NCBI RefSeq assembly: GCF_001815905.1
Contig: NZ_KV823268.1
Coordinates: forward strand, 1-64,000
Reading direction: 5' to 3'
DNA length: 64,000 bases
From: Brevibacterium sp. HMSC07C04
Lineage (GTDB): Bacteria; Actinomycetota; Actinomycetes; Actinomycetales; Brevibacteriaceae
The notes beneath the pieces are model-generated. The model was given only the letters and a program-made list of their open reading frames with translations. It had not been told where the DNA came from and ran no database searches. Below, in pieces: positions 4,659-11,521 of the stretch. Each line of letters starts with the position of its first letter. Positions within the stretch are counted from its first letter, which is position 1. A program made the position numbers and the translations under genes.

Positions 4659-5018
4659 TCAGTCGCAGAGTTCGGCCGAGTGGGCCAGCGCGTCCTGAAT
4701 GATGTGTGCTACGTGGTGGTCGGTCACTTCGTAGTGGGCTTCGCGGCCGGAGCGCTGAACGCTGACCAGCCGCTGATTGCGCAGCGTGCGCAGGTGCTGG
4801 GACACCAAAGGCTGAGACAGGTTCGTCAGCAGCACGAGCTCGGACACCGTCAGCGGCGAGTGCGACAGTGCAAGCAGAATCCGCAGGCGCGACGGGGTGG
4901 CGAGAACCTTGAAGATGTCGGCCGTGAGTTCGATGGCCTGAGCGTCTGTCAGGTCTTCGGGAATGCGAAGTTCGCCGTCGTCATCGAATTTCAGGTGCGG
5001 GTATGCATCACGTGCCAT
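4659..5018 (-). CDS. ArsR-family transcriptional regulator
   Basis: Small winged-helix DNA-binding repressor of 119 residues. The recognition region reads LATPSRLRILLAL then VSELVLLTNLSQPLVSQHLRTLRNQRLV, followed by the wing RSGREAHYEV and a C-terminal helix with HHVAH. No CxC metal site is present, so classical arsenic or cadmium sensing is unlikely; the C-terminal histidines could bind zinc or be incidental. A GTG two codons upstream is possible. I prefer the ATG at 5018 because TACACT lies 7 nt before it, which suggests a leaderless mRNA. It is probably co-directional with, and a regulator of, the downstream acyl-CoA synthetase gene. Confidence 0.85.
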   Translation of the reverse strand: MARDAYPHLKFDDDGELRIPEDLTDAQAIELTADIFKVLATPSRLRILLALSHSPLTVSELVLLTNLSQPLVSQHLRTLRNQRLVSVQRSGREAHYEVTDHHVAHIIQDALAHSAELCD

Positions 5019-5052
5019 GCCCACCAGTGTATTCCAGGCCGGCCGAACCCTC

Positions 5053-5691
5053 TCAGCGGCTGTTCGGCGCTGTGGCGAGGATGTCGGCGGCCAGCGGCTC
5101 CCACTTGCCGTACGCGTCCGGGTGGGCCGAGCGCTGCACAGCCTGTGCGGCGTCGTTCTTGCTCATCTTCTGCCAGCCGGATATCTGTTTGAGCCCGGCG
5201 TTCTTGACCTTCGGGTTGACTCCGTAGAACGCGGTTGTGGCGTAGTGGACATTGAGCACCTGACCGTCGGTTCCCCACCCCTGTGAGGGGCGCTGTTGGA
5301 ACACTCCGAGCGAGTCTCGGTCCCCGTAGGGCAGATTGCGCAGGGAGGATTCCTGCATAGCGGTCATGAGCGCGATTTCGATCCCAGCATCTGACACGGA
5401 GTGTTCGCGTCCGATGTCGATGATTTCGCGCGCAATCTCCATCTGTCCCGAATCCAGGGCCGCTGCCGAGGTGGGGGCCAGCTTCTCTGACACCTTCTCT
5501 TTGGCTGCCTGCCGCTGATCGGGGTCAGAGAGCACCCCTGTTACTGCGGTTCCCGCTGTGAACAGGCCCAGGGCCAAAAGTGCGGCGGTCACGCCCATGA
5601 CAGTGCTGCGGAAGTTTCGGCGCCCTTCCCCTTTGCGGCGCCGAACTCTGCGACTCGATGGTCGCCTGCGTACTGTCTTTCTGCGTGCCAC
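5053..5691 (-). CDS. Membrane-anchored lysozyme-like domain protein (paralogue 1)
   Basis: 212 residues. The N-terminus is very basic (residues 1-26, many Arg/Lys) and is followed by one hydrophobic helix (about 30-52), so it should be a type II membrane protein with an outside C-terminal domain. That domain carries ALMTAMQESSLRNL, GDRDSLGVFQQRPSQGWG and FYGVNPKVKN. Such Glu-containing blocks recall transglycosylase/lysozyme folds (the Glu of MQES could be catalytic), but this is inference. Similar actinobacterial proteins are usually annotated only as hypothetical. A GTG start is used with TAAAGT 6 nt upstream. The next gene encodes a secreted paralogue. A cell-wall role is likely but unproven. 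Confidence 0.75.
   Translation of the reverse strand: MARRKTVRRRPSSRRVRRRKGEGRRNFRSTVMGVTAALLALGLFTAGTAVTGVLSDPDQRQAAKEKVSEKLAPTSAAALDSGQMEIAREIIDIGREHSVSDAGIEIALMTAMQESSLRNLPYGDRDSLGVFQQRPSQGWGTDGQVLNVHYATTAFYGVNPKVKNAGLKQISGWQKMSKNDAAQAVQRSAHPDAYGKWEPLAADILATAPNSR
5127..5232. repeat. 106-bp near-identical segment, copy A
   Basis: Matches 5853-5958 at 98 of 106 positions by my hand alignment, without gaps. It encodes the C-terminal FYGVNPKVKNAGLKQISGWQ to AVQRS part of paralogue 1. The N-terminal parts of the two genes are unrelated. Confidence 0.85.
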
Positions 5692-5769
5692 GCCCTTACT
5701 TTAGGCGCTTGGACTCCACTTGCCGAACTGCTTCCCCAAGAGTCGGGTGGAGCCCAGTGTGCAGGCGCG

Positions 5770-6492
5770 TCAGCGGATGGCCGGTGCGTCCCGATTGGCA
5801 TTGAGCAGAGCGGTGGCCAGACCCTCCCACTGGGCGTAGCGATGCGGGTGCCCCGAGCGCTGCACTGCCTGTGCGGCATTGTTTTTGCTCATCTTCTGCC
5901 AGCCGGGAATCTGTTTGAGCCCGGCGTTCTTCACCTTCGGGTTGACCCCGTAGAACGCTTTGGCGGAGTAGGTTCGGTCCATGATCTGGGACTTCGAACC
6001 CCAGTTGTATTTGGGCCGCTGCTGAAACAGGCCGACGGAGTCCTTGTCGCCGTATCGGATGTTGTACAGGTCCGATTCCTGCTTGGCGGTCATGAGCGCA
6101 ATGATGATCGCGTCGTCGCTCATGCCCGCACCCTTGCCGACACCGATGATGATGCGGGCGTTGGCCGTCTGGTCGCGGTCGATTCCCCTGGGCTGCGGGC
6201 CGGGCTTCACCGTTTTCTTGGCCTGGGCCTTCGGTGCGGATTGTGCGCTGCGCGGCTGCTGGGCCTTGCGCGCTCTGTCGGCCTCTTCGGGAGTCACCCG
6301 CTGGGTGGCTGGGCCGCCGACCGAGGTGTAGTCGCCGCCGTCCTGTGCGCTGCTGGTCTGTGAGCCGCTGCCGGCGTGCGGGGTGTTGTGGTCAACGACG
6401 TTGCCGCTGAGAGCGCTGGCCGGCCCTGCGAGCAGGAGGGAGCTTGCCGCCGCGCAGCCCAGTGCGGTCGCGGCAGTGTAGATGATTCGCAT
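5770..6492 (-). CDS. Secreted lysozyme-like domain protein (paralogue 2)
   Basis: 240 residues. It starts with a typical signal peptide (MRIIYTAATALGCAAASS, cleavage likely after ASA near residue 27). A low-complexity Ser/Gln/Lys linker (about 30-105) follows, then the same C-terminal domain as its neighbour: ALMTAKQESDLYNI, GDKDSVGLFQQRP, FYGVNPKVKN, QKMSKNNAAQAVQRS. Paralogue 1 is anchored and this copy is released, so the pair may cover the membrane side and the outer wall. The upstream region (6493-6758) holds a palindrome at 6581. A lysozyme or transglycosylase activity is inferred from motif spacing only. Confidence 0.77.
   Translation of the reverse strand: MRIIYTAATALGCAAASSLLLAGPASALSGNVVDHNTPHAGSGSQTSSAQDGGDYTSVGGPATQRVTPEEADRARKAQQPRSAQSAPKAQAKKTVKPGPQPRGIDRDQTANARIIIGVGKGAGMSDDAIIIALMTAKQESDLYNIRYGDKDSVGLFQQRPKYNWGSKSQIMDRTYSAKAFYGVNPKVKNAGLKQIPGWQKMSKNNAAQAVQRSGHPHRYAQWEGLATALLNANRDAPAIR
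5853..5958. repeat. 106-bp near-identical segment, copy B
   Basis: Second copy of the segment at 5127-5232, in the same orientation, with 8 mismatches by hand alignment. High identity at synonymous positions suggests recent duplication or gene conversion limited to the domain end. Confidence 0.85.
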
Positions 6493-6758: not shown

Positions 6759-7733
6759 CTACGCGGTTCCCCCGTAGTGGGCGGCAATCCTACGCAGGCC
6801 CTCTTCAATTGAGACCGCGGGCGTCCAGTTCAAAACGCTGTGCGTGGTCCGCTGATCAAACCAGTGCGCCGTGGAAAGCTGCTCAGCGAGGAACTCCGTG
6901 AGCGGCGGCTCGTCTTCGAAATCACCGGCCGTCCAGACTTTCTCAATGACCTTTCCGGCGATCTTCGCAGCACCCACGGGCACACGCAGGGTCGGTTCGG
7001 CAGAACCGCCGGCAACCGCAATCCTGCGCATGAGCTCGCCAATGGGGCGCGGCTGCCCGTTCGTCACCACGAGAGCCAGCCCGTGCGTGTGCTGGACCGC
7101 TGACAGCGCAGCGACAATCGCGTCCACCGCGTTGTCGATGTAGAGGGTGTCGACCATCGCCAGACCCGAACCCAGCAGAGGCAGCCTTCCCTGTGCAGCC
7201 CGGTCGATGATCCTTTCGGTCAGCTGCGGTTCGCCCGGGCCCCACATGAGGTGAGGGCGAAGAGCGAGCACTCGAAAATCATCGTGCGATGCCGCCAGCG
7301 CCAAGCGCTCGCCGGCGGCTTTTGTGCGCGCGTAGTCTCCGCGGGCGGCAACGGGGTCCGCCGGTCCAGCGCCGTCGCCGACAAGAGAATCGCCAGCGTG
7401 GGCAACCGACGGCGACGAAATGTGCACCATGCGGCCGATTCCAGCCTGCTGGGCCCTTGCAACAATGTTCGCGGTGCCGTCAATATTGACTTTTTCGAAG
7501 TCTTCGGGAGCACCGACCATGGACACCTTCGCCGCCATGTGGATGAGCGCATCCTGCCCGGAAACCGCCCGGTCAACAGCTTCCAAGTCCGTGACCGAGC
7601 CCTGAACGTCACGCGCGCCTGCAACCCCGGAGGGGCGGCGCTGCAGCGTGGTCACCTCGTGGCCCTGCGCAAGGAGAGCCCGGGCGGTGGAACTTCCCAG
7701 AAGACCGGACGCACCGGTGATGAGAACCTTCAT
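6759..7733 (-). CDS. oleD: OleD, NADPH-dependent 2-alkyl-3-ketoacid reductase
   Basis: Third protein of long-chain olefin synthesis: reduces the 2-alkyl-3-keto acid made by OleA to a 2-alkyl-3-hydroxy acid. It is a 324-residue extended short-chain dehydrogenase with GASGLLGSS at 7-15 and the Tyr134-x3-Lys138 pair (YARTK), with a Ser near 107 completing the site. The frame is open to 7781, but the ATG at 7733 starts the Rossmann fold and overlaps the OleBC stop in ATGA, so it is translationally coupled. Gene order oleA-oleBC-oleD and a terminator right after it mark a complete operon. Without this context it would be only a generic epimerase. Confidence 0.9.
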   Translation of the reverse strand: MKVLITGASGLLGSSTARALLAQGHEVTTLQRRPSGVAGARDVQGSVTDLEAVDRAVSGQDALIHMAAKVSMVGAPEDFEKVNIDGTANIVARAQQAGIGRMVHISSPSVAHAGDSLVGDGAGPADPVAARGDYARTKAAGERLALAASHDDFRVLALRPHLMWGPGEPQLTERIIDRAAQGRLPLLGSGLAMVDTLYIDNAVDAIVAALSAVQHTHGLALVVTNGQPRPIGELMRRIAVAGGSAEPTLRVPVGAAKIAGKVIEKVWTAGDFEDEPPLTEFLAEQLSTAHWFDQRTTHSVLNWTPAVSIEEGLRRIAAHYGGTA

Positions 7734-10462
7734 CAGACGCTCCTTCCCACCGGCGCGCCGGAAAGCACGCGGGATGCCCACGCTCCCAGCTCCGTGCGGC
7801 CGACTTTGGAATTGTGGCGAATATCAGTGGGGAATTCGGGTGCGACGAGAACTGCCGCAACATCGAGGCCCATACGGTCGAGAACCGCCGCGCGGATGGC
7901 ATCGATCATCGGCTGCGGGGCCAGTCCCGGCCGCAGGTTCTGCGGACCGCCCGGCTCAAGCACCACGACGAGCGCCTGCCTGCCCACCGGGCCGACGCCC
8001 ACAGCCGCACAGCGGGTCACCCCGTCGGTGCGTTCTGCAATGGACTCAACGGCCCCGGGGCCAATGGGGCCCGTGGGCCCGGCGATGACGTGCTGCACGC
8101 GCCCTTCGAGCCACAGACGCCCCTTGGCGTCAAAACGGCCGATGTCGCCCGTGCGATGCCACGGTTTGGCGCCGCCGTGTTCGTCGCGGCGGGAATCGGC
8201 GTCAGTCTTCCACAGCCGGTCGTAGCCGTCCTTCAGATGGGCGGCGGAGACGACGAACTCGCTGAGCACGCCGATTCCGTCATCCAGGGGAATCTTGTGT
8301 TCGCTGGGCTTGCCCTCGGCATCGAGCGGGGCGAGCATGAAGTCGACCGCGCCGATCGGCTTGCCCACACAGACCCCGCCGACCACCGGCGAATCCGGGT
8401 CAGCCGCATCCGCCTCGGCTTCGACAGCACCCGGGAAGTCGATGTTGGTCAGCAGCAGACTCTCCGTCATGCCGTAGGGCGAATTGATCCGCGCGTTCGG
8501 GAAGACTTCCGCAATCTGCTCCATGAGCACCGTCGGCACGGGAGCACCGGCAGACAGCGCCAGTTCAATGCCGGCGCACGCCTCGCGCTGCTCAGCACTC
8601 AGGGCGTGCGCGGTCTTGACCACGTTCGTGTAGGCGGCAGGTGATGCGAACACCATGGTGCAGCCGGCCTCGACGATGGCGTCAGCAAGAGCAGAAGCGG
8701 TCAGGGTGGCGGGCTTCGTCACCGACATGTTCGGCGTGACGCTCACCGCGCCCAGTCCCGGTCCAAGCAGTGCAAAGGGCGCGAAACCGGCAACCAGTCC
8801 CGTACCTGGGCGCACATCGAACTCGGCGCTGAGGACGCGCATGAGCTCACCGAGGCCGCGGTGAGTGTACCGCACGCCCTTGGCCGGGCCGGTGGAACCG
8901 GAGGTGAAGAGAATCGCGGCATCGTCATCGAGTTCCGGTACGGCAATCGAATCGCGGTCGCGCACAGCCGTCCGCGACAGAGCCGTGATCGACGTTTCGA
9001 CCTTCAGCGCCCGCGCGCGCAGCCGCGGCAGCGGCAGGACGGAGATTCTGCGTCCCGGCCATCCGCCGGCTCGGGCCAATGTCAGCCCTGGGGTCTCGCC
9101 GATGATCCACTGCGGGTCGGCAGCTTTGACCGCCCGAGTCATACCGGCTGGCCCAAGCCCCGCGTCTGCCACAACGACAACACCGCCGACCTTGAGCACC
9201 GCGTAGGCGGCCGCCGTGAGATTGTTGCCCGGTTCGATCAGCAGGCTGACCCGATCGCCTTTGCGCAGGCCCATGGCCTTCAAACCTGCCGCAATGTTGT
9301 CGACGACTCCGGCCAGCTGGGCCCAGGAAACCGCCTGGGCGGGGTGTGCCGACATGTCGCCACTCGCGATCGAGCGCTCGCGGTGTTTGGCATCGAGCGC
9401 TGAGAACACGAAGTCCGGTTCAGGCCCGTCTGCTTGGGCCGGACTGCTTTCTTCTGCCGAGGTGGAAGCTGCCTGAGTCTGCTCAGTCACGTTGGCGTCA
9501 AGCCACTGGAAGATGGTCTCCCAGTACGGGACGTCTTCGACGAACAGGTGTGAGGTCTTCTCAAAGCGGTGGATGTCCGCGTGGGGCAGGCGCTCGCGCA
9601 GATCGCGCAGGTACCGCTCCAGGAAGACCGGGTCCTTCGGTCCCCACATGAGCAGCGCGGGATTGGGCATGCGGGCGATGTCGGCGGCAACCCGCTGCAG
9701 CTCAGCGTAGGAGGGGTGGTTTTCGTTCACCGGAATGTCGGCGACGAAGCCGCCCACTCCGCCGCGGCGCTGCGGGGATGCGTAGGGTCTGCGGTAGGCG
9801 CGGCGCAGCGGGTCCGAAATGTTCTTTGACAAGCGCAGCGTGGTGCGGATGAACGCATCGGTGTACACGGTCGAACCGGCCAGCAGCGGGCCTGCCAGCG
9901 CCGCTTGCAGAGGCGCTGGGATGGAAGCGTCCTCCGGCTGGTGCACTGCGGTGTTAAGGCTCATGGCGGCACTGATCCGCTCAGTGTTGCGGGCTGCCCA
10001 GCCAAGCGAAATGACACCGCCCCAGTCGTGTCCGAGTGTGACCAGCGGAAGACTGTCGTCGACGAGCTCTGAAATGAGCGCGTCAAGCTGGCCTATGCGA
10101 TCGGCAAGGCGGAAATAGCCGGTGCCGTGCGGTGTGGGCACTGGGTGCTCGATGCGCTCGGAATAGCCCATGTCCAGCTGGTCGGGGGCGATGACTCGCC
10201 ACGCGGTGCCGCCTGCCTCGGCAGCTTCGAGTGATGCCTGCGCGAGTCTGCGCCACATATACGACCACGTGGGATTGCCGTGCACGGCGACGATGGTGCC
10301 GGCCGGTTCCATTCCGATGTCATGCAAAGCCGAAGCGGTGTCGAGAACGTGGAAGGTGTGTTCGCCGACCGTGACCAGGCGGGACCATCGGGGATCCCAT
10401 TCGGGAAGATTCGGCGGCAGCTGCGCGGCAGCGGCTGGAAGAGGGCTGTTTTCAGACGACAA
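7733..10462 (-). CDS. oleBC: OleBC fusion: beta-lactone decarboxylase + beta-lactone synthetase
   Basis: 909 residues with two catalytic domains. Residues 1-325 are an alpha/beta hydrolase of the haloalkane-dehalogenase type (OleB): nucleophile Asp146 in GHDWGG, Asp277 in WGPKDP and His305 in EKTSHLF. OleB removes CO2 from the beta-lactone to give the cis-olefin. After a polar linker (about 325-350), residues 350-909 are an AMP-ligase-type OleC with the P-loop LFTSGSTGPAKG at 518-529 and Lys886 in RHNSKV; OleC closes the hydroxy acid to the beta-lactone. Fused OleBC is known from actinobacteria. The start is TTG with GAGGAGAG 7 nt upstream; no ATG fits. It lies 30 nt after oleA. Confidence 0.92.
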   Translation of the reverse strand: MSSENSPLPAAAAQLPPNLPEWDPRWSRLVTVGEHTFHVLDTASALHDIGMEPAGTIVAVHGNPTWSYMWRRLAQASLEAAEAGGTAWRVIAPDQLDMGYSERIEHPVPTPHGTGYFRLADRIGQLDALISELVDDSLPLVTLGHDWGGVISLGWAARNTERISAAMSLNTAVHQPEDASIPAPLQAALAGPLLAGSTVYTDAFIRTTLRLSKNISDPLRRAYRRPYASPQRRGGVGGFVADIPVNENHPSYAELQRVAADIARMPNPALLMWGPKDPVFLERYLRDLRERLPHADIHRFEKTSHLFVEDVPYWETIFQWLDANVTEQTQAASTSAEESSPAQADGPEPDFVFSALDAKHRERSIASGDMSAHPAQAVSWAQLAGVVDNIAAGLKAMGLRKGDRVSLLIEPGNNLTAAAYAVLKVGGVVVVADAGLGPAGMTRAVKAADPQWIIGETPGLTLARAGGWPGRRISVLPLPRLRARALKVETSITALSRTAVRDRDSIAVPELDDDAAILFTSGSTGPAKGVRYTHRGLGELMRVLSAEFDVRPGTGLVAGFAPFALLGPGLGAVSVTPNMSVTKPATLTASALADAIVEAGCTMVFASPAAYTNVVKTAHALSAEQREACAGIELALSAGAPVPTVLMEQIAEVFPNARINSPYGMTESLLLTNIDFPGAVEAEADAADPDSPVVGGVCVGKPIGAVDFMLAPLDAEGKPSEHKIPLDDGIGVLSEFVVSAAHLKDGYDRLWKTDADSRRDEHGGAKPWHRTGDIGRFDAKGRLWLEGRVQHVIAGPTGPIGPGAVESIAERTDGVTRCAAVGVGPVGRQALVVVLEPGGPQNLRPGLAPQPMIDAIRAAVLDRMGLDVAAVLVAPEFPTDIRHNSKVGRTELGAWASRVLSGAPVGRSV

Positions 10463-10492
10463 TGAGCTTCTCTCCTCGTAGTGTGCCGGTTT

Positions 10493-11521
10493 TTACCAGA
10501 CGATCTCCGTCATGGAGGTGTTGAGACCCGAGCCCACACCCATTGCCAGAACCCGGTCACCGGCTTTGAGCGAATCGACTTCGCGGGCGAGCGTGATCGG
10601 CAGCGAAGCGGGGCCCACATTGCCCAGCACCGGGTAGGTCTTCGGCACCCGATCCATGGGGATCTTCGCGGCCTTCGTGATGGCGTTGACGTGCACATCG
10701 GACACCTGGTGCATGATGTAGCGGTCCATGTCGGTCCAGTCCCACCCGTTTTCGTGGGCTTCTTCCCACGCCGAGGTGACCAGCTGCATGCCGTTGGACA
10801 GCAGGCCCGCGGTGTCGGTGAACATGCCGTCGTGATCGCCCACGCACAGCTCGTGGTTCCACGTGGCCGCACGCGTCACACTGCCGAGGATCCGATGGCC
10901 TTCCGGGTGCTTGTCCGCGCGTCCCAGAACGGCGGCCGAGGCACCGGAGCCCAGGGTCAGGGAGGCGAATTCGTTGAGGTATTCGGCGCGGGTGATGCCT
11001 TCGCGCTGCAAGCGCTTGAGGGTGGCCCGCTGGACTTTCGACGCGTCTTCGGAGGCCACGACGAGCGCGTACTCGATGGCGCCGGATTCGATCATGGTCG
11101 CAGCGACCGCCATCGCGTTGACAAAGCCCAAACAGGCATTGGCGATGTCGAAGTTCATGGCTGACGACGGCAGGCCGATGCCGTCGTGAATCGACACCGC
11201 CACCGATGGTTCGAGGTTGGCGCGGGTGACCGACGCGTTGATCATCAGCCCGATCTGCCCGGCTTCGATGCCGGCTGCGGCGAGTGCTTTCTTGCCGGCC
11301 GCAACGCCGCCTTCGACGAAGCCGCCGGAGTCTTCTGCCCAGTTGCGGCGCGAATTCACACCCGCGACCCGCTGCAGGAGACCTTCGGGCAGTCCCAGGC
11401 GGTCAAGTGTGGACTTCAGCTGTTCGTCGTAGAAGGCGGACGTCACTTCGATGGGTGCAGTCACTTCCGAGACACTCAGAAGGGATGTGTTCTCGTGCCG
11501 AAGTGTCGTGTTTCCGTTCAA
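10493..11521 (-). CDS. oleA: OleA, acyl-CoA head-to-head condensing thiolase
   Basis: Joins two fatty acyl-CoAs by non-decarboxylative Claisen condensation to a 2-alkyl-3-keto acid, the first step of olefin synthesis. The 342-residue thiolase-fold protein has the catalytic triad Cys130 (IANACLGF), His271 (IMHQVSD) and Asn301 (LGNVGP). It also has Glu104 in TRANLEPS, the extra acid that separates OleA from FabH. All four sit 13-14 residues before the numbers reported for Xanthomonas OleA (143, 285, 315, 117). The start appears to be TTG at 11521, with AGGA somewhat far upstream; no ATG precedes the conserved region. First gene of oleA-oleBC-oleD. Confidence 0.92.
   Translation of the reverse strand: MNGNTTLRHENTSLLSVSEVTAPIEVTSAFYDEQLKSTLDRLGLPEGLLQRVAGVNSRRNWAEDSGGFVEGGVAAGKKALAAAGIEAGQIGLMINASVTRANLEPSVAVSIHDGIGLPSSAMNFDIANACLGFVNAMAVAATMIESGAIEYALVVASEDASKVQRATLKRLQREGITRAEYLNEFASLTLGSGASAAVLGRADKHPEGHRILGSVTRAATWNHELCVGDHDGMFTDTAGLLSNGMQLVTSAWEEAHENGWDWTDMDRYIMHQVSDVHVNAITKAAKIPMDRVPKTYPVLGNVGPASLPITLAREVDSLKAGDRVLAMGVGSGLNTSMTEIVW

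Follow-up and report, generated by a model that had tools for sequence, protein, structure and literature searches.

Two neighbouring genes of Brevibacterium sp. HMSC07C04, here called A and B, raise the question of how paralogues that differ strongly over most of their length have come to share about one hundred bases of almost identical DNA. They lie in a stretch of 64,000 nucleotides (contig NZ_KV823268.1, positions 1 to 64,000; the window), and an earlier note, made from the letters alone, had described them as lysozyme-like tandem paralogues and had suggested either gene conversion or a recent domain duplication that preserved a functional module. We find that the homogenised tract is sharply bounded, that it is absent from the other copies compared and that its flanks diverged earlier. 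It is very probable, in our view, that A and B are old tandem paralogues of GH184 type carrying a gene-conversion tract of about 106 bases, which arose near the species split from Brevibacterium ravenspurgense.

The features of the locus are collected in Table 1. Kyte-Doolittle hydropathy, the only method used for the anchor and signal-peptide calls, agrees with the earlier reading of one copy as membrane-anchored and the other as secreted: A has a basic N-terminus and a single hydrophobic segment (peak 1.89 at residues 36-54, and 2.01 at residues 32-50 in its B. ravenspurgense orthologue), and the N-terminus of B is signal-peptide-like (peak 1.73 at residues 3-21), with cleavage predicted after the ASA that follows. 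The leaders (about residues 1-78 of A and 1-103 of B) are indeed unrelated, but this does not hold for the whole of the N-terminal halves, as had been claimed, since homology already begins at about residue 79 of A and 104 of B, well 5' of the tract. An ArsR-family gene lies near the pair in 30 of the 59 loci examined (one locus being a duplicate). On the other side, the minus-strand genes at 6759-11521 of the window look like an olefin-biosynthesis (ole) cluster; by Pfam they encode a KAS III-like protein, a fusion of an alpha/beta-hydrolase with an AMP-binding enzyme and a member of the NAD-dependent epimerase/dehydratase family.

Table 1. Features of the A/B locus, with positions in the window
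Feature	Position	Strand	Description	Basis or remark
Gene A	5053..5691	-	ORF; predicted membrane-anchored GH184-type muramidase, 212 aa, GTG start	B. ravenspurgense orthologue, 87% aa over 199 residues; PDB 8b2e/8b2h matches
Gene B	5770..6492	-	ORF; predicted secreted GH184-type muramidase, 240 aa	B. ravenspurgense orthologue, 80% aa over 246 columns; same-place relatives in G004, G025
Converted tract in gene A (putative)	5127..5232	-	A residues 154-188; 98/106 identical to B	A/B-type sites at the edges, 5233 and 5126, none inside
Matching tract in gene B	5853..5958	-	B residues 179-213	726 bases from A tract
Predicted membrane anchor of A	5530..5598	-	About residues 32-54	Kyte-Doolittle
Signal-peptide-like N-terminus of B	6412..6492	-	About residues 1-27	Kyte-Doolittle
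Predicted catalytic Glu114 of A	5350..5352	-	Outside tract	Aligns with KsGH184 Glu41
Predicted catalytic Glu139 of B	6076..6078	-	Outside tract	Position equivalent to A Glu114
ArsR-family regulator gene	4659..5024	-	Conserved neighbour	Pfam HTH_5, E 1.1e-15

Neither A nor B has a match over the curated cut-off in Pfam or NCBIfam. A search of solved structures with A alone returned 8b2h (2.7e-05) and 8b2e (2.8e-07), both GH184 muramidases, and a profile built from 17 relatives found the same two entries with E values of 9.7e-18 and 6e-16. The AlphaFold2 model, made for the A domain only (pLDDT 94.1), superimposes on 8b2e with a Z score of 20.3 and an rmsd of 1.5 over 126 residues, the next row outside GH184 having a Z score of 10.5 and lytic transglycosylases scores of about 10; a Foldseek search with this model agrees (E 5.1e-06). 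Glu41 of KsGH184, reported as essential by mutation (PMC10394673), aligns with Glu114 of A and Glu139 of B and is invariant in the 17 aligned relatives, and the nearby Asp66 has its equivalents in Asp124 and Asp149 (residue numbers counted by eye along the alignment). Homology to GH184, the predicted fold of A and the conserved glutamate agree with the description of the pair as lysozyme-like. The likeness to the muramidases described in PMC10394673 lies in sequence, predicted fold, catalytic Glu and nearby Asp; the characterised enzymes of that account are fungal and mostly have an SH3-like wall-binding domain, whereas A and B are bacterial and have a membrane anchor or a signal peptide instead. 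Bacterial members without a wall-binding domain are mentioned in the same source, and A and B gave no SH3-type Pfam match at E up to 1. Both proteins would be expected to cut the glycan strands of peptidoglycan, the membrane-tethered A near the membrane and the exported B in or beyond the wall.

Relatives of the domain occur in other settings. In viral contigs, 195 stretches encode one (the best 80 of the 195 being L146-L225), so the domain is common in phage or prophage sequence. In Cutibacterium modestum (L065:4728-5792) a relative precedes an NlpC/P60 domain in one protein, which may be a transfer element's cell-wall enzyme; its gene lies downstream of a large ORF without a Pfam match that by eye resembles a membrane protein. 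Yet another copy, encoded in the source genome (L075:4616-6274), shares a single protein with a peptidase M23 domain.

Aligned without gaps at an offset of 726 bases, the two genes match at 98 of 106 positions (5127-5232 against 5853-5958), exactly as the earlier note had counted. Nucleotide identity is 97/105 over the 35 full codons of the tract, 128/225 upstream of it (75 shared codons) and 40/72 downstream; the shared domain outside the tract is about 57% identical. The observation that the match extends to synonymous sites was also borne out: among codons for the same residue, synonymous differences between A and B number 5/33 in the tract as against 16/36 upstream (0/8 downstream). No other window of 105 bases exceeds the 97 matches of the tract, a value that 20,000 codon shuffles never reached (maximum 95). 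When viral contigs were searched with a DNA pattern, there was no match. In the model of the A domain the tract covers the last part of one helix, a long loop containing short turns, and a further helix, and it leaves out the predicted catalytic Glu. It is therefore a piece of one GH184-type domain and not a transferable module, contrary to the proposal that the segment from FYGVNPKVKN to AVQRS had been preserved as a functional unit.

The only close named locus found, that of B. ravenspurgense CCUG56047, is 86.4% identical to the window over 10,778 aligned columns, by which measure the source genome is close to B. ravenspurgense but distinct from it. Both orthologues are present there in the same order and place, beside the same ArsR, acetyl-CoA-synthetase-like and aminotransferase-like genes (the latter two labelled by eye). 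Where A and B can be aligned, A-type and B-type are told apart in both species by 75 sites, two of which belong to the stop codon of A. None lies in the tract, where the orthologues resemble their own counterparts no more than the neighbouring gene; the result that the earlier note had named as refuting its reading thus did not appear. Such sites end at 5233 and resume at 5126; the next largest gap between them is 21, a gap of 107 was reached in none of 200,000 random placements, and a run of 35 codons free of such sites in none of 20,000 codon permutations. The pattern is found in two separate assemblies, with identical boundaries in the two species. Synonymous differences between orthologues are ordinary within the tract (9/33 and 8/32, with 24/68 and 15/68 upstream), which supports gene conversion.

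Two explanations without any such copying have to be weighed. The tract could be kept alike by purifying selection on the protein or the DNA, and it does end in a family motif (AAQAVQRS) within a stretch of about 65 bases, running from the last 28 bases of the tract onward past it, for which a DNA search of the genus gave seven rows with 82-88% identity. In 2,386 further homologue pairs that have diverged to a domain identity of at most 0.66, however, mean identity in the tract columns equals that upstream (0.64 each), and among 6,216 pairs of 112 distinct Brevibacterium copies the four comparisons of A with B, within and between the two species, rank first to fourth by the residual of tract identity on flank identity (z 5.6-6.3, then 3.1), with none of the 77 other within-genome pairs above z 1.3. 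These copies are a subset (113 rows, 112 distinct) to which the genus searches add further close and distant ones, and the set leaves aside the duplicate locus of G020, a long copy from the source genome (C59) and the order-level outgroups G056 and G043. Since the control pairs show no excess, the orthologues diverge normally at synonymous sites of the tract and no site inside it separates A from B, conservation of protein or DNA fails to explain the patch and we regard it as a very improbable cause. The sharp bounds, the absence of all 75 split sites and the top four of 6,216 residuals instead support the gene conversion that had been proposed. The other explanation, a recent duplication of the whole gene or the domain followed by fast divergence everywhere but in the tract, would suit the adjacency of A and B and the single copy that genomes G004 and G025 have at this place. 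In quartets of the flanking protein sequence, however, B paired with its relative in G004 or G025 in 10 of 10 cases, the A+B grouping was rejected (AU p 0.001-0.023) and the third topology had p values of 0.011-0.070. The flank quartet of the two species spoke against both non-orthologue trees (AU p 5e-46 and 2e-05), a history with which the tract, lacking all 75 split sites, is discordant. In a flank tree of 44 hand-chosen rows, B, its orthologue and B of G004 and G025 form a supported clade (99/97) with A outside. If the A and B rows of the two species are constrained to one group in this tree, the cost is 22 log units, which at p 0.077 is not rejected at the 0.05 level, and a tree in which A is held with B and the G004/G025 genes is not rejected either (p 0.337). 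The split between A and B is thus probably older than the divergence of G004 and G025 and, judged from these comparisons, the tract is younger than its flanks. With the abrupt boundaries at both ends also against it, recent duplication, the other origin suggested in the earlier note, is disfavoured and has in our estimate only a very slight chance of being correct, even allowing for the borderline clade test.

Adjacency by itself is not sufficient for homogenisation, because other tandem pairs of the family show none. We had considered genus-wide concerted evolution of tandem pairs, and in a first scan the mean local excess was 0.169 for 28 tandem pairs (those of the source genome and B. ravenspurgense included), compared with 0.100 for 51 distant within-genome pairs and 0.109 for 5,447 pairs whose members come from different genomes. 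When identity was compared in 20 of the 23 two-copy loci, those of G017, G035 and G002 being set apart as another cluster, it was 0.734 within and 0.736 across genomes (p 0.78) and the idea was dropped; we read the excess of the first scan as a reflection of an unevenly conserved domain in that cluster. In G070 (L130:3563-6449) three homologous genes stand in a row, the stop-to-stop frames of two of them overlapping, and these copies are locally somewhat more alike in the half with the active site.

How often the tract was exchanged, and when, bears on the form of gene conversion to be preferred. Repeated two-way conversion in both species after their split, that is ongoing concerted evolution of the tract, is a stronger form of the same explanation, so that the probabilities of the two overlap; we consider it unlikely, if worth keeping in mind. 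Within-species identity between A and B in the tract (97/105 in the source genome, 95/105 in B. ravenspurgense) is slightly above that between orthologues (93/105 for both A and B), but the cross-species A-B values are nearly as high (96/105 and 94/105) and the differences are small and not significant. The tract contains three species-split sites, all synonymous, and two cross sites, which are too few to fix the timing, and no orthologue-split site. The species grouping is also the best quartet of the tract, the orthologue topology being the least likely (AU p 0.086, not rejected). Together with the site pattern this places the event close to or after the species split. The identical boundaries in both species agree with one event that immediately preceded the split, and none of the 20 other tandem pairs shows repeated conversion. 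Still more doubtful is the idea that this same 106-base window has been exchanged repeatedly and in both directions since speciation, about a quarter of the catalytic domain evolving in concert as the leaders and the half with the active site grow apart.

For the direction of copying, the nearest relatives of A are informative. Its flank is nearest to G017, G035, G003 and G063 (59/95 each), its tract to B of G004 and G025 (29/35 and 28/35; next 24/35), and the tract tree, like the flank tree built from hand-chosen rows (44), places the A and B rows of both species with B of G004 and G025 (97/77). This favours copying from B to A, which is the likelier direction. The tract is too short for proof and its trees are weak: neither grouping the A orthologues alone (AU p 0.417) nor placing B with G004 and G025 without A (p 0.435) was rejected, and in tract quartets A+B was best in 4/10 and A+outgroup in 6/10, all within 2.5 log units. 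Moreover, the source-genome B alone shares a Pro in the tract with G004 and G025 where the other three sequences have Ser, and the exchange may therefore not have been one-way. Our preferred account is that A and B are old tandem paralogues, each with a GH184-type muramidase domain behind a different leader (A membrane-tethered, B secreted), and that about 106 bases of that domain were copied between them through homologous recombination in the lineage of the source species and B. ravenspurgense, shortly before or after these separated. B would be the donor and A the recipient. Most simply, a RecA-type exchange would have been seeded where the two domains match well; it may have been tolerated because this portion of the fold has a common task in A and B.

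The source genome gave no MutS1 match (0/1, as against 11/14 control genomes with one) and one NucS match. NucS is described as restraining recombination between non-identical sequences in M. smegmatis (PMC8228993), so the genome may not be unusually permissive for exchanges of this kind. The process itself is known in bacteria. As in RF1/RF2 (PMC4530459), anciently diverged paralogues have exchanged a segment where the task of the protein is common to both; unlike that case, in which the account given concerns nearly a whole domain, A and B are adjacent, are likely cell-wall enzymes and share a tract of about 106 bp. The tuf genes of Salmonella (PMC5485169) offer a parallel, since one chromosomal copy passes continuous tracts to the other without reciprocity, as may also have happened between A and B; the tuf copies are described as nearly identical, whereas A and B are neighbours with flanks of about 57% identity. 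Among the titles and abstracts listed in literature searches on gene conversion in peptidoglycan hydrolase paralogues or in Brevibacterium, and on Brevibacterium lysozyme-like enzymes and peptidoglycan hydrolases, none reports this pair. With RF1/RF2 as precedent, A and B are a clean and otherwise ordinary example. They provide a clear case of bacterial paralogues that have diverged strongly and yet carry a very short gene-conversion tract, in a genome with a NucS match and no MutS1 match, and they warn that full-length trees of such families can mix two histories. They also point to a large group of actinobacterial GH184-type enzymes that has no usable Pfam match.
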